DNA from: Longimicrobiales bacterium
GTDB taxonomy: Bacteria > Gemmatimonadota > Gemmatimonadetes > Longimicrobiales > Gaopeijiaceae
Assembly (NCBI GenBank): GCA_958295645.1
Contig: OY282361.1
Span: 1,144,501-1,208,500, forward strand
Direction of reading: 5' to 3'
DNA: 64,000 nucleotides
Of the stretch, positions 29,504-48,456 are shown piece by piece. Each line of letters begins with the position of its first letter. Position 1 is the first letter of the stretch. Below the pieces are notes generated by a model, which saw only the letters and a program-made list of their open reading frames with translations, was not told where the DNA came from and ran no database searches. Both the position numbers and the translations under genes were made by a program.

Positions 29504-31545
29504 GGATCGCTGCCAGCATCGCAGGGCTCCGCTGCCGGCGGCTCGCGGCCAAGCACGACGGCCGGCGCCAAGTCGTCCTGTCCGCCTCGCGTCGGCCCGG
29601 CGGGCCAGTACGCCATGCGAAAGACCTTCCCGCCCGAGGTGTCGGCCGCTACGCAGTAGTCGTGGCCGCCTTGCCCGAGCAGACGGGCCACGTGCGCGGC
29701 CTCGAGCAACTCGTCCCAGGCCGTGGGGTTCGCCATTGGACGCCAGGCGGGCGAGTTCGCCTCGTCGTCGATGAACACGAAGAAGCGAGCGGCGCGGCCC
29801 CCGCCCTCCCCGCCGCCGATTTGGCTGATCCAGGTCTTCCCGTTGCCCAGAAAGGGGACGATGACGGGGAGGCTCACCGCGTGCCCCGCCTCCGACAGGT
29901 AGACGGCGATCAGTCTGCTCGTCGTCCGGGTGGCCGCGACATAGTCGCCCGGCTCCAGCTCCGCCGCGACCGCAGCAACAAGAGCCGCCGCGTTCGGGGA
30001 GTTGGTCGTCTCCCGGGCGAACCGCTCCTGCACTCCAGGTCGTGTGGCCCACACGGCGAACATGCCCGCGACGGCCAACACGCCGGCAACGCGCATGGCC
30101 TGAGGCGCCCGGCCCCTCAATTTCGGCAGCGCCCGCCCCAGTGCGGCCTCCCACAGCACGGCGGCCCCGGCGCCCGCCAAGACCATCGACACGAACAACA
30201 GGAAGAGCGTCATGCGCGGATCCAGCACAACCGGCCGCACGAGAAGAACCGCTCCCATCCCGGCCACGGCAGCGGCGGCGAGCAGGCCGCCGCGACCCGT
30301 CCGCCGACCGGGCACGGCCACGCCCGCCGCCAACGCCAACGCCAACGCCACCTGGGCCCACGCGGGCGTCGCCGCGTGCCATTTGACCCAGGCGACCGTA
30401 TGCATTGCCACGAACCGATGTCCACCGGGCACGGCATCTGGTTGCACGAAGCGGTTGTTCAGCAGAGCGTCGGGTCCAGCGCCGGCCAACACGGGCGCGT
30501 AGAGCAGCGCCGCCAAGCCCAGCGCCGCGCCCGACCACGCCGCCGCCTTCAAGGCGAACCGCGGCAGCGCCCCAGCGCCCCGCTCCCGCCAGCACAGGAG
30601 AAGCATCCAGCAGACCGCCACCGCCGCAGGAAGCACCATCAGCGGCATGACGAAGAACCCCAGCCCCACCGCCCCCGCGTACCCCGCCCACCATCGCCCC
30701 GCCTCCGGCCGCCTCGCCGCCTCGCTCCCGCACGCCATGGCCAGCACGAAGCACAGCAGCATCAGCGTGTACCCCCGCGCGTTCGAAGCGTACTCCACGA
30801 ACAGCGGCGACGTCCCCAGCAGCGCCGTCGCGAATCCCGCCGCAAGTCGTCCGTGCTCTCGCCGCACGAACCACCACGTCGCCGCAAGCGCCGCAACGGC
30901 CGCCAGGAACGCCGGCATCCTGAGCGCCACCGGGTCCCAGCCGCCCAGCCGATGCGCAACCCAGACCAGCAACGTGTGCAGGACATGGTTGTTCGGCACG
31001 TCGTACGTGCTCCAGGCGTGCCAGAACGACTGGGACGCGTAGGACAGCACCGTCGTCGCCTCGTCGGTCCGCATGGGCAACGTCAGGTTGCGTGCCGCCA
31101 GCGCCACGCCGGCGCCGATCGCAATCGCCGCGAAGGCGGCGTCCGTCCACGTGACGCGCGCGGCCTCCGGGCTACCGGGATCGGGAGAGGCCGCAAGCAG
31201 AGGCCCAAGACCACGCCGAAGCGCCAACATCCCGGCCCCCGAGACCGCTGAGGCGACCGCCAGTTCGCGGAGCAGGCCCGCGACCACGGCGTCGGACATG
31301 CCCTCCAACACGAACACGCTGCCGTCCGCCGACAGCCATTCCGCGAGGTCGCGAACCCTCCCGACCCCCCACTGAGCAACGACGGCCAAGCCCGCAGCCG
31401 CCGCGACCAGCGCCCATCCCGCCGCGGCCACGCCTCGAGCAAAGCGCGCATCCCGCCGCAGCGGCGCTCCCCCCTCCTCGCCGCCCTCGATCTGGTCGGC
31501 GAAGTTGTCGTCGGTGATCGTCACTACGTTCGTGCCTTCCGCCAT
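29500..31545 (-). CDS. TrxA-leader::glycosyltransferase fusion, family II copy A
   Basis: A polytopic GT-C/PMT-like glycosyltransferase of 681 residues whose first 18-20 residues (MAEGTNVVTITDDNFADQIE) are those of the neighbouring thioredoxin. The join is in frame through EGGEEGGAPLRRDARFARG to the transferase. Family features are TLPMRTDEATTVLSYA (likely catalytic acids in the first loop) and YASNARGYTLMLL, about eleven hydrophobic helices, and a C-terminal domain ending HDYCVAADTSGGKVFRMAYWP. A six-G run at 31469-31474 in the linker sets the frame. The start, SD and part of the promoter are copies of trxA's. Sugar and acceptor are unknown. Confidence 0.8.
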   Translation of the reverse strand: MAEGTNVVTITDDNFADQIEGGEEGGAPLRRDARFARGVAAAGWALVAAAAGLAVVAQWGVGRVRDLAEWLSADGSVFVLEGMSDAVVAGLLRELAVASAVSGAGMLALRRGLGPLLAASPDPGSPEAARVTWTDAAFAAIAIGAGVALAARNLTLPMRTDEATTVLSYASQSFWHAWSTYDVPNNHVLHTLLVWVAHRLGGWDPVALRMPAFLAAVAALAATWWFVRREHGRLAAGFATALLGTSPLFVEYASNARGYTLMLLCFVLAMACGSEAARRPEAGRWWAGYAGAVGLGFFVMPLMVLPAAVAVCWMLLLCWRERGAGALPRFALKAAAWSGAALGLAALLYAPVLAGAGPDALLNNRFVQPDAVPGGHRFVAMHTVAWVKWHAATPAWAQVALALALAAGVAVPGRRTGRGGLLAAAAVAGMGAVLLVRPVVLDPRMTLFLLFVSMVLAGAGAAVLWEAALGRALPKLRGRAPQAMRVAGVLAVAGMFAVWATRPGVQERFARETTNSPNAAALVAAVAAELEPGDYVAATRTTSRLIAVYLSEAGHAVSLPVIVPFLGNGKTWISQIGGGEGGGRAARFFVFIDDEANSPAWRPMANPTAWDELLEAAHVARLLGQGGHDYCVAADTSGGKVFRMAYWPAGPTRGGQDDLAPAVVLGREPPAAEPCDAGSDP

Positions 31546-31636
31546 CCTCTGCTTCTCCGTTTGTCGGGACGCGGTCGGGCGCGCCCTGCGCCCGGCCCGC
31601 GTGCGCTCCGCGTTGCCACAAGCTGTTGTAGGACAT

Positions 31637-31846
31637 CCTGTCGCCCGGTTCCTGGAGCGGCGCGGGCCCGGTCTTCACCACGTCGCGTACCGGACGGACG
31701 ACTTGACCGCGCTGATGCGACGCTTGGCGGACGAGGGCTGCGAGTTCACCTCTGCGGAACCCATGACTGGAGCGGGCGGCCACCGGGTCGCGTTCGTGCA
31801 CCCGCGATCCACGGGCGGCGTGCTCGTCGAACTGGTCGAGAAGTAG
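31637..31846 (+). pseudogene. mce 3' fragment (array junction 1)
   Basis: Matches the intact mce from PVARFLERRGPGLHH to the stop. The 5' half is replaced by the trxA leader at the join GGACAT/CCTGTCG. No proper start codon precedes it, and the N-terminal metal ligand is lost. Confidence 0.92.
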
Positions 31847-31924
31847 CCTGCCCAGGGCGGTTTCCTGCGCCGGCGAAGCGCCCGAGCCCGGTCCGATCTC
31901 TGAGCGCGAAGAAGACCTCGCGGC

Positions 31925-33856
31925 TCACGGATCGCTGCCAGCATCGCAGGGCTTCGCTACCGACGGCTCGCGGCCAAGCACGACGGCCGGCGCCAAGTCG
32001 TCCTGTCCGCCTCGTGTCGGCCCGGCGGGCCAGTACGCCATGCGAAAGACCTTCCCGCCCGAGGTGTCGGCCGCTACGCAGTAGTCGTGGCCGCCTTGCC
32101 CGAGCAGACGGGCCACGTGCGCGGCCTCGAGCAACTCGTCCCAGGCCGTGGGGTTCGCCATTGGACGCCAGGCGGGCCAGTTCGCCTCGTCGTCGACGAA
32201 CACGAAGAAGCGAGCGGCGCGGCCCCCGCCCTCCCCGCCGCCGATTTGGCTGATCCAGGTCTTCCCGTTGCCCAGAAAGGGGACGACGACGGGGAGGCTC
32301 ACCGCGTGCCCCGCCTCCGACAGGTAGATGGCGATCGGCTTGCTGGTCGGGTCAGGGGCCGCGACGTAGTCGCCCGGCTCCAGCTCCGCCACGACCGCGG
32401 CAACAAGAGCCGGCGCGTTCGGGGAGCCAAACGCCTCCCGGGCAAAATGGCCCGCCACTCCAGGTCGCGTGGCCCACCCAGCGGATATGCCCGCGACGGC
32501 CAACACGCCGGCAACGCGCATGGCCTGAGGCGCCCGGCCCCTCAATTTCGGCAGCGCCCGCCCCAGTGCGGCCTCCCACAGCACGGCGGCCCCGGCGCCC
32601 GCCAAGACCATCGACACGAACAACAGGAAGAGCGTCATGCGCGCCTCCAGCACAACCGGCCGCACGAGAAGAACCGCTCCCATCCCGGCCACGGCGGCGG
32701 CGAGCAGGCCGCCGCGACCCGTCCGCCGCCCGGGCGCGGCCACGCCCGCCGCCAACGCCACCGCCAACGCCACCTGGGCCCACGCGGGCGTCGCCGCGTG
32801 CCATTTGACCCAGGCGACCGCCGTATGCTTTACCAGGAACCGATGTCCCCCTGGCACGGCATGCGCTTGCACGAATTGGTTGTTCAGCAGAGCGTCGGGC
32901 CCAGCGCCGGCCAGCACGGGCGCGTAGAGCAGCGCCGCCAAGCCCAGCGCCGCGCCCGACCACGCCGCCGCCTTCAAGGCGAACCGCGGCAGCGCCCCAG
33001 CGCCCCGCTCCCGCCAGCACAGGAGAAGCATCCAGCAGACCGCCACCGCCGCAGGAAGCGCCATCAGCGGCATGACGAAGAACCCCAGCCCCACCGCCCC
33101 CGCGTACCCCGCCCACCATCGCCCCGCCTCCGGCCGCCTCGCCGCCTCGCTCCCGCACGCCATGGCCAGCACGAAGCACAGCAGCATCAGCGTGTACCCC
33201 CGCGCGTTCGAAGCGTACTCCACGAACAGCGGCGACGTCCCCAGCAGCGCCGTCGCGAATCCCGCCGCAAGTCGTCCGTGCTCTCGCCGCACGAACCACC
33301 ACGTCGCCGCAAGCGCCGCAACGGCCGCCAGGAACGCCGGCATCCTGAGCGCCACCGGGTCCCAGCCGCCCAGCCGATGCGCAACCCAGACCAGCAACGT
33401 GTGCAGGACATGGTTGTTCGGCACGTCGTACGTGCTCCAGGCGTGCCAGAACGACTGGGACGCGTAGGACAGCACCGTCGTCGCCTCGTCGGTCCGCATG
33501 GGCAACGTCAGATTGCACGCCGCCAGCGCCACGCCGACGCCGATCACGACCACCGCGAAGGCGGACTCCGTCCAGGTGACGCGCGCGGATTCCGGGCGGC
33601 CTGAGTCGGGAGAGGCCGCGAGCAGAGGCCCAAGACCGCGCCGAAGCGCCAACATCCCGGCCCCCGAGACCGCTGAGGCGACCGCCAGTTCGCGGAGCAG
33701 GCCCGCGACCACGGCGTCGGACATGCCCTCCAACACGAACACGCTGCCGTCCGCCGACAGCCATTCCGCGAGGTCGCGAACCCTCCCGACCCCCCACTGA
33801 GCAACGACGGCCAAGCCCGCAGCCGCCGCGACCAGCGCCCATCCCGCCGCGGCCAC
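31925..33856 (-). CDS. Family II glycosyltransferase copy B, trxA leader out of frame
   Basis: Same polytopic transferase as copy A (TDEATTVLSYA, YASNARGYTLMLL). The linker here has five G instead of six (33894-33898), so a ribosome starting at the trxA-type ATG (33967-33969) reads a 141-codon nonsense frame. The nearest start in the transferase frame is the internal GTG at 33854-33856, which gives 643 residues and begins at VAAAGWALVAAAAG, just before the first helix. The transferase frame itself is open further upstream, so the gene is otherwise intact. Whether it is expressed, silent or frameshifted cannot be told from sequence. Confidence 0.7.
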   Translation of the reverse strand: MAAAGWALVAAAAGLAVVAQWGVGRVRDLAEWLSADGSVFVLEGMSDAVVAGLLRELAVASAVSGAGMLALRRGLGPLLAASPDSGRPESARVTWTESAFAVVVIGVGVALAACNLTLPMRTDEATTVLSYASQSFWHAWSTYDVPNNHVLHTLLVWVAHRLGGWDPVALRMPAFLAAVAALAATWWFVRREHGRLAAGFATALLGTSPLFVEYASNARGYTLMLLCFVLAMACGSEAARRPEAGRWWAGYAGAVGLGFFVMPLMALPAAVAVCWMLLLCWRERGAGALPRFALKAAAWSGAALGLAALLYAPVLAGAGPDALLNNQFVQAHAVPGGHRFLVKHTAVAWVKWHAATPAWAQVALAVALAAGVAAPGRRTGRGGLLAAAVAGMGAVLLVRPVVLEARMTLFLLFVSMVLAGAGAAVLWEAALGRALPKLRGRAPQAMRVAGVLAVAGISAGWATRPGVAGHFAREAFGSPNAPALVAAVVAELEPGDYVAAPDPTSKPIAIYLSEAGHAVSLPVVVPFLGNGKTWISQIGGGEGGGRAARFFVFVDDEANWPAWRPMANPTAWDELLEAAHVARLLGQGGHDYCVAADTSGGKVFRMAYWPAGPTRGGQDDLAPAVVLGREPSVAKPCDAGSDP

Positions 33857-34060
33857 GCCTCGAGCAAAGCGCGCATCCCGCCGCAGCGGCGCTCCCCCTC
33901 CTCGCCGCCCTCGATCTGGTCGGCGAAGTTGTCGTCGGTGATCGTCACTACGTTCGTGCCTTCCGCCATCCTCTGCTTCTCCGTTTGTCGGGACGCGGTC
34001 GGGCGCGCCCTGCGCCCGGCCCGCGTGCGCTCCGCGTTGCCACAAGCTGTTGTAGGACAT

Positions 34061-34270
34061 CCTGTCGCCCGGTTCCTGGAGCGGCGCGGGCCCGGTCTTC
34101 ACCACGTCGCGTACCGGACGGACGACTTGACCGCGCTGATGCGACGCTTGGCGGACGAGGGCTGCGAGTTCACCTCTGCGGAACCCATGACTGGAGCGGG
34201 CGGCCACCGGGTCGCGTTCGTGCACCCGCGATCCACGGGCGGCGTGCTCGTCGAACTGGTCGAGAAGTAG
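34061..34270 (+). pseudogene. mce 3' fragment (array junction 2)
   Basis: Same fragment as the first junction, 2424 bp further on. It lacks the first half and any usable start. Confidence 0.92.
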
Positions 34271-34348
34271 CCTGCCCAGGGCGGTTTCCTGCGCCGGCGA
34301 AGCGCCCGAGCCCGGTCCGATCTCTGAGCGCGAAGAAGACCTCGCGGC

Positions 34349-36280
34349 TCACGGATCGCTGCCAGCATCGCAGGGCTTCGCTGCCGACGGCTCGCGGCCA
34401 AGCACGACGGCCGGCGCCAAGTCGTCCTGTCCGCCTCGTGTCGGCCCGGCGGGCCAGTACGCCATGCGAAAGACCTTCCCGCCCGAGGTGTCGGCCGCTA
34501 CGCAGTAGTCGTGGCCGCCTTGCCCGAGCAGACGGGCCACGTGCGCGGCCTCGGGCGACTCGTCCCAGGCCGTGGGGTTCGCCATTGGACGCCAGGCGGG
34601 CCAGTTCGCCTCGTCGTCGACGAACACGAAGAAGCGAGCGGCGCGGCCCCCGCCCTCCCCGCCGCCGATTTGGCTGATCCAGGTCTTCCCGTTGCCCAGA
34701 AAGGCGACGACGACGGGGAGGCTCACCGCGTGCCCCGCCTCCGACAGGTAGACGGCGATCGGCTTGCTGGTCGGGTCAGGGGCCGCGACGTAGTCGCCCG
34801 GCTCCAGCTCCGCCACGACCGCGGCAACAAGAGCCGGCGCGTTCGGGGAGCCAACCGTCTCCCGGGCAAAATGGCCCGCCACTCCAGGTCGCGTGGCCCA
34901 CCCAGCGGATATGCCCGCGACGGCCAACACGCCGGCAACGCGCATGGCCTGAGGCGCCCGGCCCCTCAATTTCGGCAGCGCCCGCCCCAGTGCGGCCTCC
35001 CACAGCACGGCGGCCCCGGCGCCCGCCAAGACCATCGACACGAACAACAGGAAGAGCGTCATGCGCGCCTCCAGCACAACCGGCCGCACGAGAAGAACCG
35101 CTCCCATCCCGGCCACGGCGGCGGCGAGCAGGCCGCCGCGACCCGTCCGCCGCCCGGGCGCGGCCATGCCCGCCGCCAACGCCACCGCCAACGCTACCTG
35201 GGCCCACGCGGGCGTCGCCGCGTGCCATTTGACCCAGGCGACCGCCGTATGCTTTACCAGGAACCGATGTCCCCCTGGCACGGCATGCGCTTGCACGAAT
35301 TGGTTGTTCAGCAGAGCGTCGGGCCCAGCGCCGGCCAGCACGGGCGCGTAGAGCAGCGCCGCCAAGCCCAGCGCCGCGCCCGACCACGCCGCCGTCTTCA
35401 AGGCGAACCGCGGCAGCGCCCCAGCGCCCCGCTCCCGCCAGCACAGGAGAAGCATCCAGCAGACCGCCACCGCCGCAGGAAGCGCCATCAGCGGCATGAC
35501 GAAGAACCCCAGCCCCACCGCCCCCGCATAGCCCGCCCACCATCGCCCCGCCTCCGGCCGCCTCGCCGCCTCGCTCCCGCACGCCATGGCCAGCACGAAG
35601 CACAGCAGCATCAGCGTGTACCCCCGCGCGTTCGAAGCGTACTCCACGAACAGCGGCGACGTCCCCAGCAGCGCCGTCGCGAATCCCGCCGCAAGTCGTC
35701 CGTGCTCTCGCCGCACGAACCACCACGTCGCCGCAAGCGCCGCAACGGCCGCCAGGAACGCCGGCATCCTGAGCGCCACCGGGTCCCAGCCGCCCAGCCG
35801 ATGCGCAACCCAGACCAGCAACGTGTGCAGGACATGGTTGTTCGGCATGTCGTACGTGCTCCAGGCGTGCCAGAACGACTGGGACGCGTAGGACAGCACC
35901 GTCGTCGCCTCGTCGGTCCGCATGGGCAACGTCAGATTGCACGCCGCCAGCGCCACGCCGACGCCGATCACGACCACCGCGAAGGCGGACTCCGTCCAGG
36001 TGACGCGCGCGGATTCCGGGCGGCCTGAGTCGGGAGAGGCCGCGAGCAGAGGCCCAAGACCGCGCCGAAGCGCCAACATCCCGGCCCCCGAGACCGCTGA
36101 GGCGACCGCCAGTTCGCGGAGCAGGCCCGCGACCACGGCGTCGGACATGCCCTCCAACACGAACACGCTGCCGTCCGCCGACAGCCATTCCGCGAGGTCG
36201 CGAACCCTCCCGACCCCCCACTGAGCAACGACGGCCAAGCCCGCAGCCGCCGCGACCAGCGCCCATCCCGCCGCGGCCAC
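34349..36280 (-). CDS. Family II glycosyltransferase copy C, trxA leader out of frame
   Basis: Nearly identical to copy D in its body (shared KTAAWSG, AAGMAAPG, RETVGSPN and ESPEAAH where B has KAAAWSG, AAGVAAPG, REAFGSPN and ELLEAAH), but with the B-type junction upstream. The five-G run at 36318-36322 puts the trxA-type start (36391-36393) out of frame, as in B. The internal GTG at 36278-36280 is the first start in frame and gives 643 residues. The patchwork of C/D bodies and B-type leader points to unequal crossing-over or gene conversion inside the array. Confidence 0.7.
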   Translation of the reverse strand: MAAAGWALVAAAAGLAVVAQWGVGRVRDLAEWLSADGSVFVLEGMSDAVVAGLLRELAVASAVSGAGMLALRRGLGPLLAASPDSGRPESARVTWTESAFAVVVIGVGVALAACNLTLPMRTDEATTVLSYASQSFWHAWSTYDMPNNHVLHTLLVWVAHRLGGWDPVALRMPAFLAAVAALAATWWFVRREHGRLAAGFATALLGTSPLFVEYASNARGYTLMLLCFVLAMACGSEAARRPEAGRWWAGYAGAVGLGFFVMPLMALPAAVAVCWMLLLCWRERGAGALPRFALKTAAWSGAALGLAALLYAPVLAGAGPDALLNNQFVQAHAVPGGHRFLVKHTAVAWVKWHAATPAWAQVALAVALAAGMAAPGRRTGRGGLLAAAVAGMGAVLLVRPVVLEARMTLFLLFVSMVLAGAGAAVLWEAALGRALPKLRGRAPQAMRVAGVLAVAGISAGWATRPGVAGHFARETVGSPNAPALVAAVVAELEPGDYVAAPDPTSKPIAVYLSEAGHAVSLPVVVAFLGNGKTWISQIGGGEGGGRAARFFVFVDDEANWPAWRPMANPTAWDESPEAAHVARLLGQGGHDYCVAADTSGGKVFRMAYWPAGPTRGGQDDLAPAVVLGREPSAAKPCDAGSDP

Positions 36281-36484
36281 GCCTCGAGCAAAGCGCGCAT
36301 CCCGCCGCAGCGGCGCTCCCCCTCCTCGCCGCCCTCGATCTGGTCGGCGAAGTTGTCGTCGGTGATCGTCACTACGTTCGTGCCTTCCGCCATCCTCTGC
36401 TTCTCCGTTTGTCGGGACGCGGTCGGGCGCGCCCTGCGCCCGGCCCGCGTGCGCTCCGCGTTGCCACAAGCTGTTGTAGGACAT

Positions 36485-36694
36485 CCTGTCGCCCGGTTCC
36501 TGGAGCGGCGCGGGCCCGGTCTTCACCACGTCGCGTACCGGACGGACGACTTGACCGCGCTGATGCGACGCTTGGCGGACGAGGGCTGCGAGTTCACCTC
36601 TGCGGAACCCATGACTGGAGCGGGCGGCCACCGGGTCGCGTTCGTGCACCCGCGATCCACGGGCGGCGTGCTCGTCGAACTGGTCGAGAAGTAG
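36485..36694 (+). pseudogene. mce 3' fragment (array junction 3)
   Basis: Third copy of the truncated mce end, identical in layout to the other two. Confidence 0.92.
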
Positions 36695-36772
36695 CCTGCC
36701 CAGGGCGGTTTCCTGCGCCGGCGAAGCGCCCGAGCCCGGTCCGATCTCTGAGCGCGAAGAAGACCTCGCGGC

Positions 36773-38776
36773 TCACGGATCGCTGCCAGCATCGCAGGGC
36801 TTCGCTGCCGACGGCTCGCGGCCAAGCACGACGGCCGGCGCCAAGTCGTCCTGTCCGCCTCGTGTCGGCCCGGCGGGCCAGTACGCCATGCGAAAGACCT
36901 TCCCGCCCGAGGTGTCGGCCGCTACGCAGTAGTCGTGGCCGCCTTGCCCGAGCAGACGGGCCACGTGCGCGGCCTCGGGCGACTCGTCCCAGGCCGTGGG
37001 GTTCGCCATTGGACGCCAGGCGGGCCAGTTCGCCTCGTCGTCGACGAACACGAAGAAGCGAGCGGCGCGGCCCCCGCCCTCCCCGCCGCCGATTTGGCTG
37101 ATCCAGGTCTTCCCGTTGCCCAGAAAGGCGACGACGACGGGGAGGCTCACCGCGTGCCCCGCCTCCGACAGGTAGACGGCGATCGGCTTGCTGGTCGGGT
37201 CAGGGGCCGCGACGTAGTCGCCCGGCTCCAGCTCCGCCACGACCGCGGCAACAAGAGCCGGCGCGTTCGGGGAGCCAACCGTCTCCCGGGCAAAATGGCC
37301 CGCCACTCCAGGTCGCGTGGCCCACCCAGCGGATATGCCCGCGACGGCCAACACGCCGGCAACGCGCATGGCCTGAGGCGCCCGGCCCCTCAATTTCGGC
37401 AGCGCCCGCCCCAGTGCGGCCTCCCACAGCACGGCGGCCCCGGCGCCCGCCAAGACCATCGACACGAACAACAGGAAGAGCGTCATGCGCGCCTCCAGCA
37501 CAACCGGCCGCACGAGAAGAACCGCTCCCATCCCGGCCACGGCGGCGGCGAGCAGGCCGCCGCGACCCGTCCGCCGCCCGGGCGCGGCCATGCCCGCCGC
37601 CAACGCCACCGCCAACGCTACCTGGGCCCACGCGGGCGTCGCCGCGTGCCATTTGACCCAGGCGACCGCCGTATGCTTTACCAGGAACCGATGTCCCCCT
37701 GGCACGGCATGCGCTTGCACGAATTGGTTGTTCAGCAGAGCGTCGGGCCCAGCGCCGGCCAGCACGGGCGCGTAGAGCAGCGCCGCCAAGCCCAGCGCCG
37801 CGCCCGACCACGCCGCCGTCTTCAAGGCGAACCGCGGCAGCGCCCCAGCGCCCCGCTCCCGCCAGCACAGGAGAAGCATCCAGCAGACCGCCACCGCCGC
37901 AGGAAGCGCCATCAGCGGCATGACGAAGAACCCCAGCCCCACCGCCCCCGCATAGCCCGCCCACCATCGCCCCGCCTCCGGCCGCCTCGCCGCCTCGCTC
38001 CCGCACGCCATGGCCAGCACGAAGCACAGCAGCATCAGCGTGTACCCCCGCGCGTTCGAAGCGTACTCCACGAACAGCGGCGACGTCCCCAGCAGCGCCG
38101 TCGCGAATCCCGCCGCAAGTCGTCCGTGCTCTCGCCGCACGAACCACCACGTCGCCGCAAGCGCCGCAACGGCCGCCAGGAACGCCGGCATCCTGAGCGC
38201 CACCGGGTCCCAGCCGCCCAGCCGATGCGCAACCCAGACCAGCAACGTGTGCAGGACATGGTTGTTCGGCATGTCGTACGTGCTCCAGGCGTGCCAGAAC
38301 GACTGGGACGCGTAGGACAGCACCGTCGTCGCCTCGTCCGACCGCACCGGCAACGTCAGATTGCACGCCGCCAGCGCCACGCCGACGCCGATCACGACCA
38401 CCGCGAAGGCGGACTCCGTCCAGGTGACGCGCGCGGATTCCGGGTGGCCTGAGTCGGGAGAGGCCGCGAGCAGAGGCCCAAGACCGCGCCGAAGCGCCAA
38501 CATCCCGGCCCCCGAGACCGCCGAAGCGACCGCCAGTTCGCGGAGCAGGCCCACGACCCCGGCGTCGGACATGCTTTCCAGCACGCCCACGTTGCCTTTC
38601 GGCGAGAGCCATTCCGCGAGGTCGCGGATCGCCCCGACCCCCCACTGAGCAGCGACGGCCAAGCCCGCAGCCGCCGCGACCAGCCCCCATCCCGCCATGG
38701 CCACGCCTCGAGCAAGGCGCGCATCCCGCCCCACCCCGGCTCGCGCCGACGTCCCCCCCCTGCCCGCGCCCCTCAC
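36773..38776 (-). CDS. Family II glycosyltransferase copy D, probably the original gene
   Basis: Polytopic GT-C/PMT-like transferase of 667 residues with no trxA leader. It starts at GTG 38774-38776, overlapping the rsmI stop as GTGA, the normal junction style of this genome. The first loop reads LPVRSDEATTVLSYA. An eight-G run at 38753-38760 lies six codons after the start; as read, the frame is open. From about residue 145 on it is nearly identical to copy C, while the first 140 residues are clearly diverged (PKGNVGVLESMSDAG against ADGSVFVLEGMSDAV). The native start and rsmI coupling suggest this is the ancestor of the array. Confidence 0.82.
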   Translation of the reverse strand: MRGAGRGGTSARAGVGRDARLARGVAMAGWGLVAAAAGLAVAAQWGVGAIRDLAEWLSPKGNVGVLESMSDAGVVGLLRELAVASAVSGAGMLALRRGLGPLLAASPDSGHPESARVTWTESAFAVVVIGVGVALAACNLTLPVRSDEATTVLSYASQSFWHAWSTYDMPNNHVLHTLLVWVAHRLGGWDPVALRMPAFLAAVAALAATWWFVRREHGRLAAGFATALLGTSPLFVEYASNARGYTLMLLCFVLAMACGSEAARRPEAGRWWAGYAGAVGLGFFVMPLMALPAAVAVCWMLLLCWRERGAGALPRFALKTAAWSGAALGLAALLYAPVLAGAGPDALLNNQFVQAHAVPGGHRFLVKHTAVAWVKWHAATPAWAQVALAVALAAGMAAPGRRTGRGGLLAAAVAGMGAVLLVRPVVLEARMTLFLLFVSMVLAGAGAAVLWEAALGRALPKLRGRAPQAMRVAGVLAVAGISAGWATRPGVAGHFARETVGSPNAPALVAAVVAELEPGDYVAAPDPTSKPIAVYLSEAGHAVSLPVVVAFLGNGKTWISQIGGGEGGGRAARFFVFVDDEANWPAWRPMANPTAWDESPEAAHVARLLGQGGHDYCVAADTSGGKVFRMAYWPAGPTRGGQDDLAPAVVLGREPSAAKPCDAGSDP

Positions 38777-39935: not shown

Positions 39936-40541
39936 CCTGCCCAGGGCGATTTCCTGCACCAGCCAGGCGCCCGCGCCGGTCCGCACGACCACGACGGGCA
40001 GCGCAGGCACGCTTCGGCCCGCTACGTCCAGGTCGGCCAGCAGCCGGACGGTCTCGCCGGACCCGTCCGGAGGCCCCCGGCGGATCGCGAGGAGACTGGC
40101 GCGCTCGAGCACCGCCGCGATCAAGGCCATTCGCCGCAGCACGTCGGCCCGGGAGGGGCACGGGTCGCCGGCGCCGATCCACGACCCCAGCCTGCGAAGC
40201 GCGCAGCCCGCGCCCCCTTCCGCGGCCTCGCCCAGAGCGCCCTCCGCCGTGCCGAAGAGTCCGGCCATCGCCCAGTGGTCGCCCCGGCCGGCCGCCTCCA
40301 AGAACCGCGTCACCGCCTCCTCCGGGCCGCGCACCGGCGAAGGACGCTCCGCCGGCGTCGCGCCGACCGGCCCCGGCCCGGCCCCCGGCGCACAACCCGC
40401 GGCCCCCAGGACCAACACGCAGACCAGCGCCGCCACCCGCACCCAGGCCGGCGCCGGCCTCCTCGCCCCGCCCCCTGCGGACCCCGCCTCCGCCGACCGC
40501 CGAAACCCACACGGCGCAGACCCGCGCCCGAGTCCCCTCAC
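39921..40541 (-). CDS. Lipoprotein of unknown function
   Basis: A 206-residue protein with a signal sequence and lipobox (VCVLVLGAAGC). A domain with EEAVTRFLEAAGRGDHWAMAGLFG follows, the shape of an NTF2-like/DUF4878 fold, then VVRTGAGAWLVQEIALGRLLLD. I cannot assign a function. It starts at GTG 40539-40541, overlapping the clpB stop (GTGA). Its last four codons lie on the strand opposite the mce remnant's tail, so the original mce and this gene converged with overlapping ends. Confidence 0.7.
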   Translation of the reverse strand: MRGLGRGSAPCGFRRSAEAGSAGGGARRPAPAWVRVAALVCVLVLGAAGCAPGAGPGPVGATPAERPSPVRGPEEAVTRFLEAAGRGDHWAMAGLFGTAEGALGEAAEGGAGCALRRLGSWIGAGDPCPSRADVLRRMALIAAVLERASLLAIRRGPPDGSGETVRLLADLDVAGRSVPALPVVVVRTGAGAWLVQEIALGRLLLD

Positions 40542-43153
40542 CCCTCCGCTCGCCCCGCCGGCCCCGCAACCGGCCTGAACTCCAGGCCCTCCGACCCCGG
40601 CCTCTCCACGAGCTCCACGGCGGCTCCCGGCGCCAGCGTGCCGTCGAGCATCTCGAGCGCCAAGGGGTCCTGCACCCACCGCTGCACCGCCCGCTTGAGC
40701 GGCCGCGCCCCGTAGGCGGGATCGAATCCCTCGCGGGCGACGCGCACCCGAGCGCCGTCCGACACCGCGAGCGCGATGCCCTGCTGGGCCGCCAAGTCCA
40801 CCACGCGAGCCAGCTGGAGCTTCACGATCTGCTCGATCTCGGCCTCGCCCAGGGGCCGGAACACGACCACGTCGTCCACCCGGTTGAGAAATTCGGGGCG
40901 GAACTGCTCCCGCAGCCTGAACTGCACCATTCTCTCCACCTCTTCCCACGGATCGCGAGCCGCGCGCGCCAGGATCTCCGTCCCCGCGATGTTCGACGTC
41001 ATGACGATCACGGCCTGCCGGAAGTCCACCGTGCGTCCCTGCGCGTCCGTCAGCCGCCCGTCGTCCAGCACCTGCAGGAAGACGTTGAAAACCTTGGGGT
41101 GGGCCTTCTCCATTTCGTCCAGGAGGATCACCGAGTGCGGCCGGCGGCGAACCGGCTCCGTCAGCTGGCCGCCCTCCTCGTAGCCCACGTAGCCCGGCGG
41201 CGCGCCCAGGAGCCGCGACACCGCATGCGCCTCCATGTACTCGGACATGTCCAGGCGCACCATGGCCCGCTCGTCGTCGAAGAGGAACTCGGCGAGAGCG
41301 CGGGCCGTCTCGGTCTTGCCCACGCCCGTCGGCCCCAGAAAGAGGAAGGAGCCCGCCGGCCGATTCGGGTCCTGGATGCCCGCACGAGCGCGCCGGACGG
41401 CTCTGGACACCGCGCTCAGCGCCTCCGCCTGTCCCACGACCCGCCGCCCCAGCAGCCCCTCGAGTCCCGCAAGCCGCCGCCGCTCCGACTCCATGAGACG
41501 GGTCACGGGAATCCCCGTCCATTCTGCGAGCACCTCGGCCACGTCTTCCGCGGTCACCTCTTCCTTGAGGAACTTTCCCTCCGCCTGGAGCCCGGCCAGG
41601 CGCTTCTCGGCCCCGGCGATCTCGTTCAGCGCCCCCGGAATCTCCGAATACTGGATTTCCGCCGCGCGATCGAGCTCGCCCCGCCGCGTGGCCCCGTCCT
41701 TCTCGGCGCGCAGGCCCTCCACCCGCTCCTTGAGCTTCTGGATGCGCAGGATTTCCTTCTTCTCCGCCTGCCAGCCCGCCTTCATCCCCTGGCTCGACTC
41801 GCGCAGGTCCGCCAACTCGGCGGCGATCCCGCCCAGGCGCTCCTTGGCGCCCGCCTCCTCCTCGCCCGACAACGCCTGCCTCTCGATCTCCAGCTGCACG
41901 ATTCTGCGCTCCACCTCGTCGATTTCCTCGGGAAGCGACTCGATCTCGATGCGCAGGCGGCTGCCGGCCTCGTCCATCAAGTCGATCGCCTTGTCGGGCA
42001 GGAAGCGCCCGCCCACGTAGCGATCCGACAGTCTGGCGGCGGCGATCAACGCATCGTCAGTGATGCGCACGCCGTGATGGACCTCGTAGCGCTCCTTGAG
42101 GCCGCGCAGGATGGCGATGCTGGCCTCGACCGAGGGCGGCGCGACGAAGACGGGCTGGAAGCGGCGCTCCAGGGCCGGATCCTTCTCCACGCGCCTGCGG
42201 TACTCGTCGAGCGTGGTCGCGCCCACGACGCGCAGATCGCCTCTGGCCAGGGCCGGCTTGAGCATGTTTCCCGCGTCCATCGCGCCCTCCCCTGCGCCCG
42301 CGCCCACCAGCGTGTGCATCTCGTCCACGAACAGGACGTAGCGCCCGTCCGCGCGGTTCACGTCCTCCAGCGCCGCCTTCATGCGCTTCTCGAAGTCGCC
42401 GCGGTACTTCGCTCCAGCCAGCATGGCGGCAACGTCCAGCGCGGCCAGCGTCTTGCCCTGCAAGGAGCCCGGCACGTCCCCGTCCGCGATCCGCTGCGCC
42501 AAGCCCTCGGCGATGGCGGTCTTGCCCACGCCCGCTTCGCCGATCAGCACGGGATTGTTCTTGGTGCGGCGCCCGAGCACCTTGATCAGGCGGCGGATCT
42601 CGTCGTCCCGCCCGATGACCGGGTCGAGCTTGCCGCGCCGGGCCATGTCGGTCAGGTCGCGGGAGTAGCGGGCGAGCGCCTGGAACCTCTCCTCGGGGCT
42701 CTGGTCGACGACCCGGTGCGACCCCCGGACCGCTTCCAGCGCGGCCTCCACGCGTTCGGCAGTCGCTCCGTTGGCGCGAAGAACGCGAGCCGCCTCGCCC
42801 GTGGAGGCCGCCAGTCCGAGGAGCAGGTGCTCGGTCGACACGTAGGCGTCCCCAAGGCGGGCCGCCGCCTGCTCCGCCCCGTCCAAGGCCGCCGTCAGGC
42901 CAGGCGAGGCGCCCGGCCTGCCCCCCGTGAGGCGCGGCAGCTTCTCCATGGCGCTCTCCACGGCCGAGGCCACTTGTCCCTCCGGCGCTTCCATCTTCCG
43001 AAGCACCGGCAGCACGACGCCGTCCTCCTGCTCCAGCAGGGCCTTCAGCAGGTGGATGCCGCGGGTCTCCGGGTGCTCCCGGCGGCGGGCTTCGGCGACG
43101 GCGCCCGCCAGGGCCTCCGCGGCCTTGATCGTCAGTCGATCCTTTGCAGTCAT
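40538..43153 (-). CDS. clpB: ClpB disaggregase chaperone
   Basis: Hsp100 AAA+ disaggregase that rescues aggregated proteins with DnaK. At 871 residues it has full length: the N-terminal Clp repeat domain ([25 protein letters not shown]), AAA1 with [15 protein letters not shown], the coiled-coil middle domain at about 405-525, AAA2 with [19 protein letters not shown], and the D2-small domain ending [25 protein letters not shown] sits six bases before the ATG 43151-43153. Three palindromes lie 90-190 bases upstream and probably control it. Confidence 0.97.
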
Positions 43154-43565
43154 TGGTTCCTCCGTCTTGTTTCAAGTGCGATTTCGGTGTGCGTCTTTCC
43201 TCGGACGGCGGGGCCGGACGCCTACTCCACGGCTGCTGCGACGCCTGCCATTTTGGCAGGACATGGAGCCGTCGCCGACCCGAAACCTGCCATTTTGGCA
43301 GGACTAGACGCTGGACGAGCCCGCAAGCCTGCCATTTTGGCAGAACCGGCGAAGGCGCCCGCCTCCGCCCTTCCTACCAATGAAAGAATCGGGCCAGCCG
43401 CCGGAGCCATGCCCTGCGCAGGCGTCCAGCGGCTCGCCGGCCCGCATCCGCGACGGCTTGACACTGCACGGCGCTTCATCCCAACGTGATTCCATCGGGC
43501 CTCTTCGCGCCCGCCGCGCCGGTCCCGAAGCGGATCGCCGTCACGCCCGCCCAAGGAAACCGCCG
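43154..43565. other. Divergent clpB / OPT-transporter intergenic region
   Basis: 412 bases without a credible gene. It contains the three palindromes (43245-43343), a clpB SD next to 43153, and a perfect TTGACA on the plus strand at 43458-43463 without a good -10. The segment 43385-43560 shows nothing else I can name. Confidence 0.6.
43245..43343. promoter_or_regulatory. Three identical 15-bp palindromes, 42 bp apart, upstream of clpB
   Basis: CTGCCATTTTGGCAG occurs at 43245-43259, 43287-43301 and 43329-43343. Each is an inverted repeat CTGCCA/TGGCAG around TTT. The 27-bp spacers are unrelated in sequence but equal in length, so the centres are exactly four helical turns apart and face the same side of the DNA. 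This is not CIRCE and not the HspR HAIR motif. A repressor or activator of clpB, or of both divergent genes, is the natural reading. Confidence 0.85.
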
Positions 43566-45575
43566 ATGGCCGCGCCTCCCGGCTCCGACGAACGCAAGGG
43601 ACTGCCGCCCGAGGCCTACGAGGTCGTGCCCGGGGACGAGTACCGCCCCTACGTCCCGCCGAACGCCACGCTGCCCGAGCTGACCTTGCGGGCCGTCCTC
43701 ATCGGCCTGGCGCTCGCGGTCGTCTTCGGCGCGGCGAACGCGTACCTGGGCCTGCGCGTGGGGCTCACCGTCAGCGCCTCGATTCCCGCCGCGGTCATGG
43801 CCGTCGCCGTCTTCCGGGTGCTGCGGCGCGGATCGATCCTCGAGACCAACATGGTCCAGACGATCGGTTCCGCGGGCGAATCGCTGGCCGCCGGAGTCAT
43901 CTTCACGATCCCCGCGCTCTTCATCTGGAGCCGAACCGACCCGTCCATCGTGGTCGACGTGGTCCAGATCTCGGTCATCGCGGGCCTGGGCGGCATCCTG
44001 GGCGTCCTGTTCATGATCCCGCTGCGGCGGTATCTCATCTCGCGCGAGCACGGCAAGCTGCCCTATCCCGAGGGAACGGCCTGCGCCGAAGTGCAGGTGA
44101 GCGGCCAGGAAGGCGGCGGCAGGGCGCGGCTCCTGTTCGCGGGCCTGGGCGTCGGAGCCCTGTACCAGGCCCTCGCCAACAGCTCCGGCCTGAGCCTGTG
44201 GAACGAGTCGCCGCACGCAAGGCTCCCGAAGAAGGCGGAGATCGGCGGCGACTTCACGCCCGAGCTCCTGGGCGTCGGCTTCATCATCGGACCGAGGATC
44301 GCCGCCGTCATGTTCGGCGGCAGCGCCCTGGCCTGGCTGATCCTGATCCCGGCCATCGCCATGTGGGGCGGCGAGGCGACGATCTATCCGGCGGCGGCCT
44401 CCATGGCGGACCTAGAGCCGTCCCAGATCTGGCACAACTACATCCGCTACGTGGGCGCGGGCGCCGTCGGCTTCGCCGGCATCGTGACGCTCCTCAAGTC
44501 GTTGCCGACCATCGTGGAGTCGTTCAAGCTGGGCGTCGGCCACGCCGGACGCGGCCGCGAGGGCGCGCTGCCCCGGACCCAGCAGGATCTGCCGCTCAAG
44601 GTTGTCGTCGGCCTAGCCGTGCTGACGGCGGTGGCCCTGTGGAGCTGGCCGGGGGTGCCGGTCGGCCCGGTGGGCGCGCTGCTCGTGGTGGTCTTCAGCT
44701 TCTTCTTCGTCACGGTGTCGAGCCGCATCGTGGGTCTGATCGGGTCGTCGTCGAACCCGGTGTCGGGCATGACCATCGCGGCCCTGATCCTGACGGCGCT
44801 CATCTGGGTGGCGCTCGGCCTCGACGACGGAGGCGGGGGCGGCAAGGTGGCCGTGCTCGCGGTGGGGGCCGTCGTCTGCGTCTCGGCGGCGGTGGCGGGC
44901 GACACATCGCAGGACCTGAAGACGGGCTTCCTCGTGGGGGCCACGCCGCGCCGAATGCAGGTGGGCGAGATGCTGGGCGTGCTCGCGGCGGCCACGGTGA
45001 TGGGCGGCGTCCTCGTGGTGCTCAACGAGTCCTACGGAATCGGCGCCGCCAACGGCCTGCCCGCGCCTCAGGCCACGTTGATGGGGTTGGTGATCGACGG
45101 CGTTCTGGAGGCGTCGCTGCCCTGGGGCTTCGTGCTGCTCGGGGCGGCGCTGGCGGCCGTGGCGGAGTTCGTGTTCAGGCTGCCGTCGCTGGCGTTCGCG
45201 GTGGGACTCTATCTGCCGGTGTCGCTGATGACGCCGATCTTCGTTGGCGGCCTCATGCGCCTGGGTCTGGCGAGGAAGGGTCGGCGCGAGGAGCCGGAGG
45301 ACGGCCCGCTGGCGGTTCGGCGGCGGGAGCAGGGCGTCCTGTTCGCTTCGGGGCTCATCGCGGGAGCGGCGCTCGTGGGCGTGCTGATCGGCGGCGCGAT
45401 CTACGTCGTGGGAAGGATCGCCGGCGACCCGTCGGCCGCCTCGATGTGGGTCGTCGGGCACGAATGGATGGACGCCTTGGTGCCGCACGGTTCCGCCGTC
45501 GTGGGGACGCTGGCGTTCGCGGCACTCTGCGCGGCTCTGTGGAGAGCGGCGACCCGGATCCGGGAGGAGGACTGA
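43566..45575 (+). CDS. OPT-family oligopeptide/metal-chelate transporter
   Basis: A polytopic inner-membrane transporter of 669 residues. Typical OPT features are ANAYLGLRVGLTVSASIPAA in the first helices, TNMVQTIGSAGESLAAGVIF, PYPEGTACAEV and GDTSQDLKTGFLVGATPRRMQ. About fifteen hydrophobic segments are visible. OPT relatives import small peptides or metal complexes by proton symport; the substrate is unknown. The start is the ATG at 43566 (MAAPPGSDERKG); the longer open frame upstream is unconserved and covers regulatory sequence. A small lipoprotein follows two bases after the stop. Confidence 0.92.
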   Translation: MAAPPGSDERKGLPPEAYEVVPGDEYRPYVPPNATLPELTLRAVLIGLALAVVFGAANAYLGLRVGLTVSASIPAAVMAVAVFRVLRRGSILETNMVQTIGSAGESLAAGVIFTIPALFIWSRTDPSIVVDVVQISVIAGLGGILGVLFMIPLRRYLISREHGKLPYPEGTACAEVQVSGQEGGGRARLLFAGLGVGALYQALANSSGLSLWNESPHARLPKKAEIGGDFTPELLGVGFIIGPRIAAVMFGGSALAWLILIPAIAMWGGEATIYPAAASMADLEPSQIWHNYIRYVGAGAVGFAGIVTLLKSLPTIVESFKLGVGHAGRGREGALPRTQQDLPLKVVVGLAVLTAVALWSWPGVPVGPVGALLVVVFSFFFVTVSSRIVGLIGSSSNPVSGMTIAALILTALIWVALGLDDGGGGGKVAVLAVGAVVCVSAAVAGDTSQDLKTGFLVGATPRRMQVGEMLGVLAAATVMGGVLVVLNESYGIGAANGLPAPQATLMGLVIDGVLEASLPWGFVLLGAALAAVAEFVFRLPSLAFAVGLYLPVSLMTPIFVGGLMRLGLARKGRREEPEDGPLAVRRREQGVLFASGLIAGAALVGVLIGGAIYVVGRIAGDPSAASMWVVGHEWMDALVPHGSAVVGTLAFAALCAALWRAATRIREED

Positions 45576-46004: not shown

Positions 46005-48377
46005 CTACCTGCCTAGGCAGAGCTTCGCGTCCGCCACGGCGGCCGGATGAACGATTCGTTGCGCCAGCCCGCCTTCCCCGTCGTCCTGCCACTGCACCTG
46101 GAGGCCCACCAGAGCCTGCTGGCTTCCCGCGTCCTCCGAGCCCAGGGGCGCGACCCCGAAGGGGCCCAGCATCGTCTGCATGTCCGCCGAGAACAAGAAG
46201 TCGCGCATCGCCGCCTCGTCGATCTCGCCGGTCGGCGCCAAGGACGCCTCCAGCGCCCCGGACAGCAGTTCGACGGCCCCGAATCCGCCGGCGGCGTGAT
46301 ATCCCGGCAGTCCGCCGTTGGCTTCCCGGAAGCGCCGGACGAACGTCTCGCTGTCCGTTAGGGCCCCGCGCGTGCGAACCGAGGGAATCCACGGCGCGTT
46401 GCCGGCGACGCAACGGGCGAGGTCGCCCACCTCCTGCGCGAACCGCGGATCGGCCGGACCGATGGACCAGCTCGTCAGCATGGGCGCGTATTCGGCGGCG
46501 GCGACCGCCTTCGTGAGCTCGATCGCGTCGTGGAGATATCCGCCGCCAATGAGCAGGTCGGCCTCGCTGCGCTTCGCGGCCTCCGCCAGCGCCGCGTGAT
46601 CGGCGGCGGCGGGCTCGTACGGCTGGTCCAGCACGATCCGCATCCCAGCGGCCTGCGCCGCCGATCGCACGCCCACGGCGACCCCCGACGGGAAGCTCGA
46701 GTTCTCCCACACCAGCGCGACCGTCCGGGCCCCGGCGGCGGCAGCCAGCTCCACCGAGCCCTGCAGGTACGTATGCGCCGGGTTGAGCATCTGGACGCTC
46801 CACTGCCGTCCCCGACCCGCCCACAAGCTCGTGGAGGCGGCCATGGCGGTGATCAACGGCTTGGAGGCCGCCTCGGTGACGGGGAGCACGCTCTCGGTGA
46901 CGGAGCTGGCGTACGGCCCGAGCAGGGCGTCGACCGAAGGATCGGCGAGGAACTGGCGGTAGCGCGAGGCGGCCAACTGCGGATTGCTGCGGTCGTCGCG
47001 CGTGACGAGTTCCACCAAGCGCCCTCCGATCCCGCCCCGCTCGTTGAGCATCTCGACGCCGAGCGCGTAGCCGGCCCGCATCTTGGCGCCGTCCACGCTC
47101 AGGCGTCCCGTCTCCGGATACGAAGCCGCGATGCGGAGGGGGCCCGGCGAACGGCTGAAGCAGGCCTCGGCGTTCGCTGCCGCCGGAGGATGGACGACCC
47201 GCTGCGCCAAGCCGCCCTGGCCGTCGTCCTGCCATTGCACCTGAAGACCTTCGAGGACCTGCTGGACGCCTGCGGAGGCGCTCCCGACCGGCGCCACCCC
47301 GTAACCGCCCAGTACCGTCTCCGTCTTGGCGGCGAAGAGGAAGTCGCGCAGGACCGCGTGTTCGACGCCCACCGGCGTCAGCGCCATGGCGAGTCCCTGG
47401 GAGAGCAGATCCACGGCCCCGAAGGCGGCGGCCTCGTGGTAGCCCGGGTCGCGGCCGTGCTTCTGGCGGAAGCGGGCGATGAACGTCTCGCTGTCGGCCA
47501 GCGTGCCTTTGGTCCGAATCGACGGGAGCCAGGGCGTGTTCCCCGCGACGCACCGGGCCAGCGCGCCGACCTCCTCCGCGAACCCGGGATCCGCCGGTCC
47601 CAAGGCGAGGCTGGTCAGCTGCGGACGGTAGCCGGCCGCGTTGGCGGCCCTCACCAACCCGACCGCGTCCGGCAGGTAGCCGCCGCCCAGGAACACGTCC
47701 GCCCCGGATCGCTTGGCCGCCTCCGCCAAGGCGGCGTGGTCGGCCCCGCCGGGCGAGTAGGACTGGTCCAACACGAGGCGAAGGCCGGCCTGGGCCGCGG
47801 ACGCTCGGACGCCCGCCGCGACGGAGGCGGGAAAGCGCGAGTCCTCCCACACCAGCGCCGCCGTGCGCGCGCCGCCCTGCGCGGCCAAGGCGACCGATCC
47901 GTCCAAGAACTTCGTGGCCGCGTTCAGCATCTGGACGCTCCAGCGGCGGTTCTGCCCCTCCCAGAGCTCCGAAGAGGCGGCCAATCCGGCGACCAGCGGC
48001 CTGGAGGCGGCCTCCGTGACCGGCAACACCGCTTCGGTGACCACGCTGCTGTAGGGTCCCAGCAAGGCGGCCACGGCGCTGTCGGCCGCGAACTCGCCGT
48101 AGATGCGCGCGGCGGCCACCGGGTCGCTGCCGTCGTCGCGCAACACGAGCTCGACTTGGCGCCCGTCGATGCCGCCCCGTTCGTTGAGCATCTCCACGGC
48201 CAGCACGTAGCCGTCGCGCATCTTGCCGCCGTCCGTGCTCAAGTACCCCGACTGCGGGTACGTCGCGGCGATGCGGACCGCCCCTGGTTCGGGCAGCGGC
48301 TTGACGGCCTCGGAGCAGGCGGCCAACAGGGGCAACGTGGCGAAGCTTGCGAGAAGGCAGTGGACGGAGCGGCGCAT
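46005..48377 (-). CDS. Lipoprotein with two tandem type-1 periplasmic binding domains
   Basis: An ABC-type substrate-binding lipoprotein of 790 residues. Signal and lipobox are FATLPLLAAC. Domain 1 (about 30-405) begins RIAATYPQSGYLSTDGGKMRDGYVL in family style. Domain 2 (about 415-790) begins RIAASYPETGRLSVDGAKMR and repeats the whole fold, with the same LGPYSS/LGPYAS, VLPVTEAAS, AALAEAAKRS and VQWQDDG landmarks. Only domain 1 has a lipid anchor. It resembles Leu/Ile/Val-type Peripla_BP_6 proteins, but no permease or ATPase gene is adjacent. AAGGAG lies nine bases before the ATG 48375-48377. Confidence 0.88.
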   Translation of the reverse strand: MRRSVHCLLASFATLPLLAACSEAVKPLPEPGAVRIAATYPQSGYLSTDGGKMRDGYVLAVEMLNERGGIDGRQVELVLRDDGSDPVAAARIYGEFAADSAVAALLGPYSSVVTEAVLPVTEAASRPLVAGLAASSELWEGQNRRWSVQMLNAATKFLDGSVALAAQGGARTAALVWEDSRFPASVAAGVRASAAQAGLRLVLDQSYSPGGADHAALAEAAKRSGADVFLGGGYLPDAVGLVRAANAAGYRPQLTSLALGPADPGFAEEVGALARCVAGNTPWLPSIRTKGTLADSETFIARFRQKHGRDPGYHEAAAFGAVDLLSQGLAMALTPVGVEHAVLRDFLFAAKTETVLGGYGVAPVGSASAGVQQVLEGLQVQWQDDGQGGLAQRVVHPPAAANAEACFSRSPGPLRIAASYPETGRLSVDGAKMRAGYALGVEMLNERGGIGGRLVELVTRDDRSNPQLAASRYRQFLADPSVDALLGPYASSVTESVLPVTEAASKPLITAMAASTSLWAGRGRQWSVQMLNPAHTYLQGSVELAAAAGARTVALVWENSSFPSGVAVGVRSAAQAAGMRIVLDQPYEPAAADHAALAEAAKRSEADLLIGGGYLHDAIELTKAVAAAEYAPMLTSWSIGPADPRFAQEVGDLARCVAGNAPWIPSVRTRGALTDSETFVRRFREANGGLPGYHAAGGFGAVELLSGALEASLAPTGEIDEAAMRDFLFSADMQTMLGPFGVAPLGSEDAGSQQALVGLQVQWQDDGEGGLAQRIVHPAAVADAKLCLGR

Positions 48378-48450
48378 GAGACGACTCCTTCGGGTTTCTC
48401 GGAGGATGGAGGGCGCGAACCCGCGCGGGGCGTGGCCTTGTGGGAGCATC

Positions 48451-48456
48451 AATATA
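48451..48456 (-). promoter_or_regulatory. Possible -10 of the double binding-protein gene
   Basis: TATATT on the minus strand is the only AT-rich hexamer in the 112-base gap, about 75 bases before the start codon. No matching -35 is visible. Confidence 0.3.

Follow-up and report, generated by a model that had tools for sequence, protein, structure and literature searches.

The window analysed here, a stretch of 64,000 nucleotides from the genome of a Longimicrobiales bacterium, encodes on its reverse strand (40538–43153) an 871-aa ClpB, identified from its open reading frame and from a match to TIGR03346 whose score of 1226.8 bits lies slightly below the cut-off of 1232.1. Upstream of clpB three copies of the palindrome CTGCCATTTTGGCAG are found on the forward strand at 43245–43259 (palindrome 1, the closest to clpB), 43287–43301 (palindrome 2, the middle copy), and 43329–43343 (palindrome 3, the most distant from clpB). 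A divergent gene on the forward strand (43566–45575) encodes an oligopeptide transporter of the OPT family, recognized by similarity; the start at 43566 was picked in the same way, and an ATG at 43380 is likewise open. Each copy is a perfect 6+3+6 palindrome, the TTT centre excepted, and the window sequence bears out the original prediction of three exact palindromes upstream of clpB, with steps of 42 and 42 bp and 27-bp spacers that differ in sequence. Matches to CTGCCATTTTGGCAG with up to 3 mismatches number 10 in the window, against a mean of 0.86 and a maximum of 3 in 100 window shuffles; six of these come from counting the three copies on each strand, and the other four derive from an unrelated 2.4-kb repeat. 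Tandem 2.42-kb units occupy positions 29510–38733, neighbours being 96.5–99.5% identical and the last copy aligning over 1951 bp, and the unit carries a PMT_2-type membrane glycosyltransferase gene; at 46005–48452 a protein of 815 aa with two tandem periplasmic-binding-protein domains is encoded.

The HAIR element has the consensus CTTGAGT-N7-ACTCAAG, which the window sequence does not match, and no TTAGCACTC-N9-GAGTGCTAA match corresponding to CIRCE is present at the array; both identities were rejected, and the motif is neither of the two, as had been supposed. The sole CIRCE-like match in this genome, with 2 mismatches, precedes groES-groEL, where the array is lacking.

Fifteen copies of CTGCCATTTTGGCAG are present in the 2.89-Mb genome, 14 of them exact and the other differing at one position, and every copy belongs to one of five arrays with steps of 41–43 bp. 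Besides the three copies before clpB, four precede hsp20 (steps of 41, 42, and 43), three precede dnaK, three, one of them imperfect, are located upstream of an MFS gene with a Fic gene on the other side, and two are inside the ATPase gene of a DUF4007 locus. The last array (L029:6672-6728, corresponding to G000:C1:1687671-1687727) is an in-frame 14-codon insertion in the large ATPase gene, which stands beside DUF4007 in a defence-like locus.

In the family, CTGCCRTTTTGGCAG is present in 39 of 121 genomes, mainly of the genera g1, g12, g38, and g39, usually with several occurrences in each genome. A wider scan, covering each GTDB species by one genome and requiring two copies 8–38 bp apart, gave 45 stretches, 43 of which belong to metagenome-assembled genomes (MAGs) of Gemmatimonadota, the exceptions being one Rothia and one Campylobacterales contig. 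The assignment of the 43 relies on the label, on coordinates shared with family genomes, or on gene content alone (L104, SB0675_bin_31); the RHO2_bin_50 and SB0662_bin_11 records, labelled Gammaproteobacteria, were assigned to Gemmatimonadota by shared coordinates. Going by the isolate names, most of the array-bearing MAGs come from sponges or corals. Together with four other arrays of this genome the stretches make up 49 arrays, 26 of which precede the start of a heat-shock gene in the right sense and within 700 bp (DnaK 12, ClpB 10, Lon 2, Hsp20 2), while for the remaining 23 none of these four starts lies within this distance. The proposed search for the motif before other heat-shock genes was therefore positive for dnaK, hsp20, and lon; absence upstream of clpB in close relatives, which would have refuted the original prediction, did not hold, the 10 clpB arrays being counted in relatives. 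The suggestion that the palindromes are shared with the OPT gene is not sustained by any promoter evidence, and membership of that gene in a regulon is not shown; 7 of the 10 clpB arrays have the start of an OPT gene on their opposite flank.

Other arrays adjoin transporters, Hut-type amidohydrolases, and further genes; in particular, arrays with steps of 31 or 30 bp adjoin genes of HutF-like or other amidohydrolases in several MAGs (L119, L133, L139, and L114). In the Campylobacterales MAG three palindromes are 22 and 21 bp apart (L144:6198-6255). A further pair, 43 bp apart at about 5885–5942 of G011:C29 (L043), occurs on a contig with relaxase-like genes and without a recognized heat-shock gene adjoining it.

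The Rothia (L116) and Campylobacterales (L144) arrays, retained among the 49, were excluded from the spacing and sigma-54 counts. The spacings of the 68 pairs in Gemmatimonadota arrays cluster at 21–24, 30–32, 39–43, 52, and 63–64 bp, that is two to six helical turns, 42 bp being the commonest (23 pairs). With spacing by whole turns, bound proteins would share a face of the double helix; the helically phased arrays support the prediction of a site for a cooperative DNA-binding protein, for which there are no binding data.

Sigma-54 promoters depend entirely on an activator and on its hydrolysis of ATP, and NtrC, NifA, and PspF are NtrC-type activators with enhancer sites at such promoters. Shortly past the last palindrome, the sigma-54-like sequences GGGCACGGCAGTTGCT and GGGCACGATCCTTGCA are present in this genome before hsp20 and dnaK, respectively. 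An outward sigma-54-like site within 70 bp was detected at 12 of 48 arrays, compared with about 0.1 expected, and inspection by eye indicated −24/−12-like sites at seven arrays, namely both lon arrays (2/2), three of hsp20, and two of dnaK; apart from one hsp20 array (L147), already among the 12, these sites are looser and were missed by the regular expression or are farther off. A set of 30 family genomes gave 29 readable dnaK cases, 28 of them with a −24/−12 promoter of the TGGCAC-N5-TTGC type before the gene and, for the most part, a copy of the site 64 bp upstream of the −24 element; L285, whose contig begins within the gene, and a second dnaK of G066 without a locus were left out. A sigma-54 −24/−12 promoter is also found before hsp20 in 24 of 30, and in genera without the perfect palindrome half-sites are located at −25, −67, and −98; half-site pairs 41–43 bp apart number 17, against a shuffle mean of 0.02. 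When site and promoter were joined in one pattern, 28 of the phylum's 395 genomes gave a match, compared with one match for the reversed control. Of the 28, 24 are before dnaK (one of them, G127, recognized by eye from its translation) and 2 before hsp20; of the other two, one is followed by groEL at 454 bp and one is unidentified. Since degenerate sites and sigma-54 promoters occupy fixed, phased positions in other genera, the perfect arrays are best read as the perfected form of an older, putative enhancer layout in several families of the class.

Before clpB a canonical sigma-54 promoter (GGCA(C/A/T)-N5-(T/C)TGC) was found in none of 23 upstream windows, two of which (L298 and L305) are misplaced by contig ends; the loci L309 and L310, with the gene start off the contig, had been left out before counting. 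A TGGYCC-N5-CTTGA-like element, which keeps the −24/−12 spacing but has no GC at −12, was recognized by regular expression on the side of the palindromes away from clpB in 16 of the 23, a count that includes TGGCCCGATTCTTTC of this genome and one off-spacing match, that of G020. The local form, TGGCCCGATTCTTTC (43382–43396, reverse strand), starts 53 bp before palindrome 3 in the sense of clpB; its function is inferred. In 15 genomes the distances from the element to the nearest palindrome are 42, 43 (five times), 53, 53, 55, 64, 74, 77, 84, 95, and 97 bp and are helically phased (R = 0.85 at 10.5 bp, a value not reached in 20,000 uniform draws), the p value treating 15 related genomes as independent, with 43 bp accounting for five of the distances. 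The position of the palindromes between the putative promoter and the gene may reflect activation from downstream or repression, and between these the data do not decide.

The gene rpoN (PF04552) is present in this genome and in 38 of 39 genomes searched, and only three sigma-54 activators, or bacterial enhancer-binding proteins (bEBPs), are encoded in this genome. Orthologues of one of them (C1:1372476-1374248) were found in 56 of 58 relatives. In four genomes its gene is located on the opposite strand at the end of the block dnaK-degP-tig-clpP-clpX-lon-engB; the gene names in this block rest on translations, with Pfam confirmation for a part, and gene calls are incomplete in some of the four. 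In the relative G043 this protein is the single bEBP found, the dnaK promoter is kept, and the upstream sites are weak; with that genome at 95% completeness, a second bEBP may have escaped detection. Pfam recognizes the AAA+ sigma-54 interaction domain (PF00158) and a Fis-type HTH (PF02954) and no receiver domain; the N-terminus is predicted to adopt a receiver fold (mean pLDDT 86), and FrzS receivers lead the profile search made with it. Inspection by eye indicates that the residues aligned with the acidic pocket are STHD or TTHD and that the position of the phosphorylated aspartate is without D; the lack of the usual phosphorylation residues suggests, as an inference, control through a partner or the folding state and not through phosphorylation. 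In the HTH, NRR is followed by L, Q, M, or H in g1, g38, g39, and g12 and by K, R, or E in the other listed genera, which is a hint only. The conserved bEBP beside dnaK-degP-tig-clpPX-lon is the best candidate for the protein that would bind the sites, binding itself being inferred; either of the remaining two bEBPs encoded here could still be the binder.

These data favor, with a probability of about 0.7, a reading in which the palindromes are tandem enhancer sites of a sigma-54 heat-shock and proteostasis regulon of Gemmatimonadota, for which no binding or induction data exist; they would probably be landing sites for a regulator that turns on protein-repair genes in sponge-associated bacteria. 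In the proposed mechanism a bEBP with an AAA+ domain, a Fis-type HTH, and a receiver-like N-terminus would bind arrays of sites spaced by whole helical turns and activate the sigma-54 RNA polymerase at the −24/−12 promoters of dnaK, hsp20, and lon; at clpB, where the sites are between the sigma-54-like element and the gene, its effect may be activation from downstream or repression. The sites of the sponge-associated genera would have turned into identical perfect palindromes and multiplied. At the level of sequence the reading is supported by the arrays, their gene neighbours, the promoters, the phased geometry across genera, rpoN, and the bEBP, whereas the bEBP as binder, heat or unfolded protein as the signal, and the activating role of the sites are inferred. 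The heat-shock or proteostasis part of the original prediction is upheld by the arrays before heat-shock genes, while the operator part gives way, a sigma-54 enhancer fitting better than a classical operator. Because groESL has a CIRCE-like element in this genome, the heat-shock response is probably divided between control of the HrcA type and control of the sigma-54 type.

Several observations speak against enhancers: the lack of a canonical sigma-54 promoter at clpB, the clpB palindromes downstream of the putative promoter, the 23 of 49 arrays without a nearby start of the four heat-shock genes, and the array within a coding sequence. The clpB sites, at phased distances between promoter and gene, are in a natural position for a dedicated heat-shock repressor, comparable to HrcA at CIRCE or HspR at HAIR, that would block clpB, dnaK, and hsp20 until stress, and perfect short palindromes suit a dimeric repressor; this is nevertheless unlikely, as the dnaK and hsp20 sites are upstream of the sigma-54 promoter, fixed across genera in the position of an activator, which such promoters require in any case, and inspection by eye recognized no repressor gene next to the arrays. 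The possibility of RNA hairpins, acting as terminator, thermosensor, or leader element, derives from the 6-bp hairpin that each copy could form and from the clpB copies, which could be part of a leader RNA; it can be practically dismissed, given that the TTT/AAA centre occurs in both orientations before heat-shock genes, that the spacing follows the DNA helix, and that the dnaK and hsp20 sites precede the promoter.

The arrays could also be a dispersed, self-spreading REP-like repeat that is near heat-shock genes without a role. Copies are identical and spacers different; compared with four plasmid homologues, the ATPase gene carries its array as an exact in-frame insertion of 14 codons, and the spacer of this array and the first one at hsp20 are related (z 6.1, the top inter-locus pair among 45 pairs); by eye, relaxase-like genes share a contig with one array. 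From the ATPase insertion and the related spacers some copying of array units within the sponge-associated clade is likely, so the spread may be real, but it leaves unexplained the degenerate sites at the same dnaK and hsp20 positions in genera without perfect palindromes, and as an account of the whole this explanation is improbable. Enhancer sites of a sigma-54 regulon remain the preferred reading.

Palindrome pairs are also carried by viral contigs, with starts 29 bp apart in 115 of 124 pairs and, in some contigs, roughly every 0.9 kb; up to six exact pairs per 10 kb occur in the contigs L149-L218 (e.g., L155:321-5555). A TGGCAY-N5-TTGC motif is present within 60 bp upstream of 84 of the 124 pairs. 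In L155, the sole contig read closely, the sigma-54-like motif is directed away from the phage genes, which seem, by eye, to be served by sigma-70-like promoters. The samples are presumably freshwater, going by the record numbers; the host search gave no DNA match in 50,697 phage records, and matches to the phage GDP-mannose dehydratase were all below 60% identity. No relatives of the ATPase stretch were found in the viral contigs. It is conceivable, and on present evidence doubtful, that a single conserved bEBP with a receiver-like pseudo-sensor would be the class-wide master activator of heat shock (dnaK, hsp20, lon, and clpB) in place of a heat-shock sigma factor and that freshwater phages carry many enhancer copies by sigma-54-like promoters to use or soak up this host stress activator.

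Textbook control of the bacterial heat-shock response is based on sigma-32, on the repressors HrcA, HspR, and CtsR, or on RNA thermosensors; unlike these routes, chaperone and protease genes here are apparently run by sigma-54 with one dedicated enhancer-binding protein. As sigma-54 promoters are wholly activator-dependent, the sensing step is reduced to a single testable protein, and a handle is offered on stress responses in uncultured sponge symbionts. Among open PubMed Central papers none was found that links the motif or sigma-54 to heat shock in Gemmatimonadota, and the literal motif was not found there. The portions considered of PMC4641369, PMC10581226, and PMC10469786 contain nothing on the sigma-54/heat-shock point.

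HrcA-CIRCE is likewise a palindromic heat-shock control element and co-exists with the arrays in this genome, before groESL; it differs in its unrelated sequence and in being a single copy, in contrast to the phased arrays. REP/REPIN elements are short identical palindromes in pairs, with variable spacers and some dispersal, features that they share with the present sites, which differ in being tied to heat-shock promoters at fixed positions. For Bacteroidota and Planctomycetota, sigma-54 promoters have been predicted (PMC12316311) before the genes for GroEL, IbpA, GroES, GrpE, DnaJ, DnaK, and ATP-dependent proteases, a system that also places sigma-54 at heat-shock genes; the passages considered name neither an enhancer site nor an activator for them, and Gemmatimonadota did not come up in a term search of the main text. 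The motif (TGNCANNNTGNCA at −33/−64) and the candidate regulator can now be sought at those predicted promoters. With NtrC-type systems the present one would share the −24/−12 promoter, the upstream tandem palindromic sites at whole helical turns, a bEBP with AAA+ and Fis-type HTH domains, and rpoN; it would differ in its targets, which are dnaK, hsp20, lon, and probably clpB, in a site sequence of its own, in the unusual geometry at clpB, and in a candidate bEBP whose receiver-like domain is unrecognized by Pfam.
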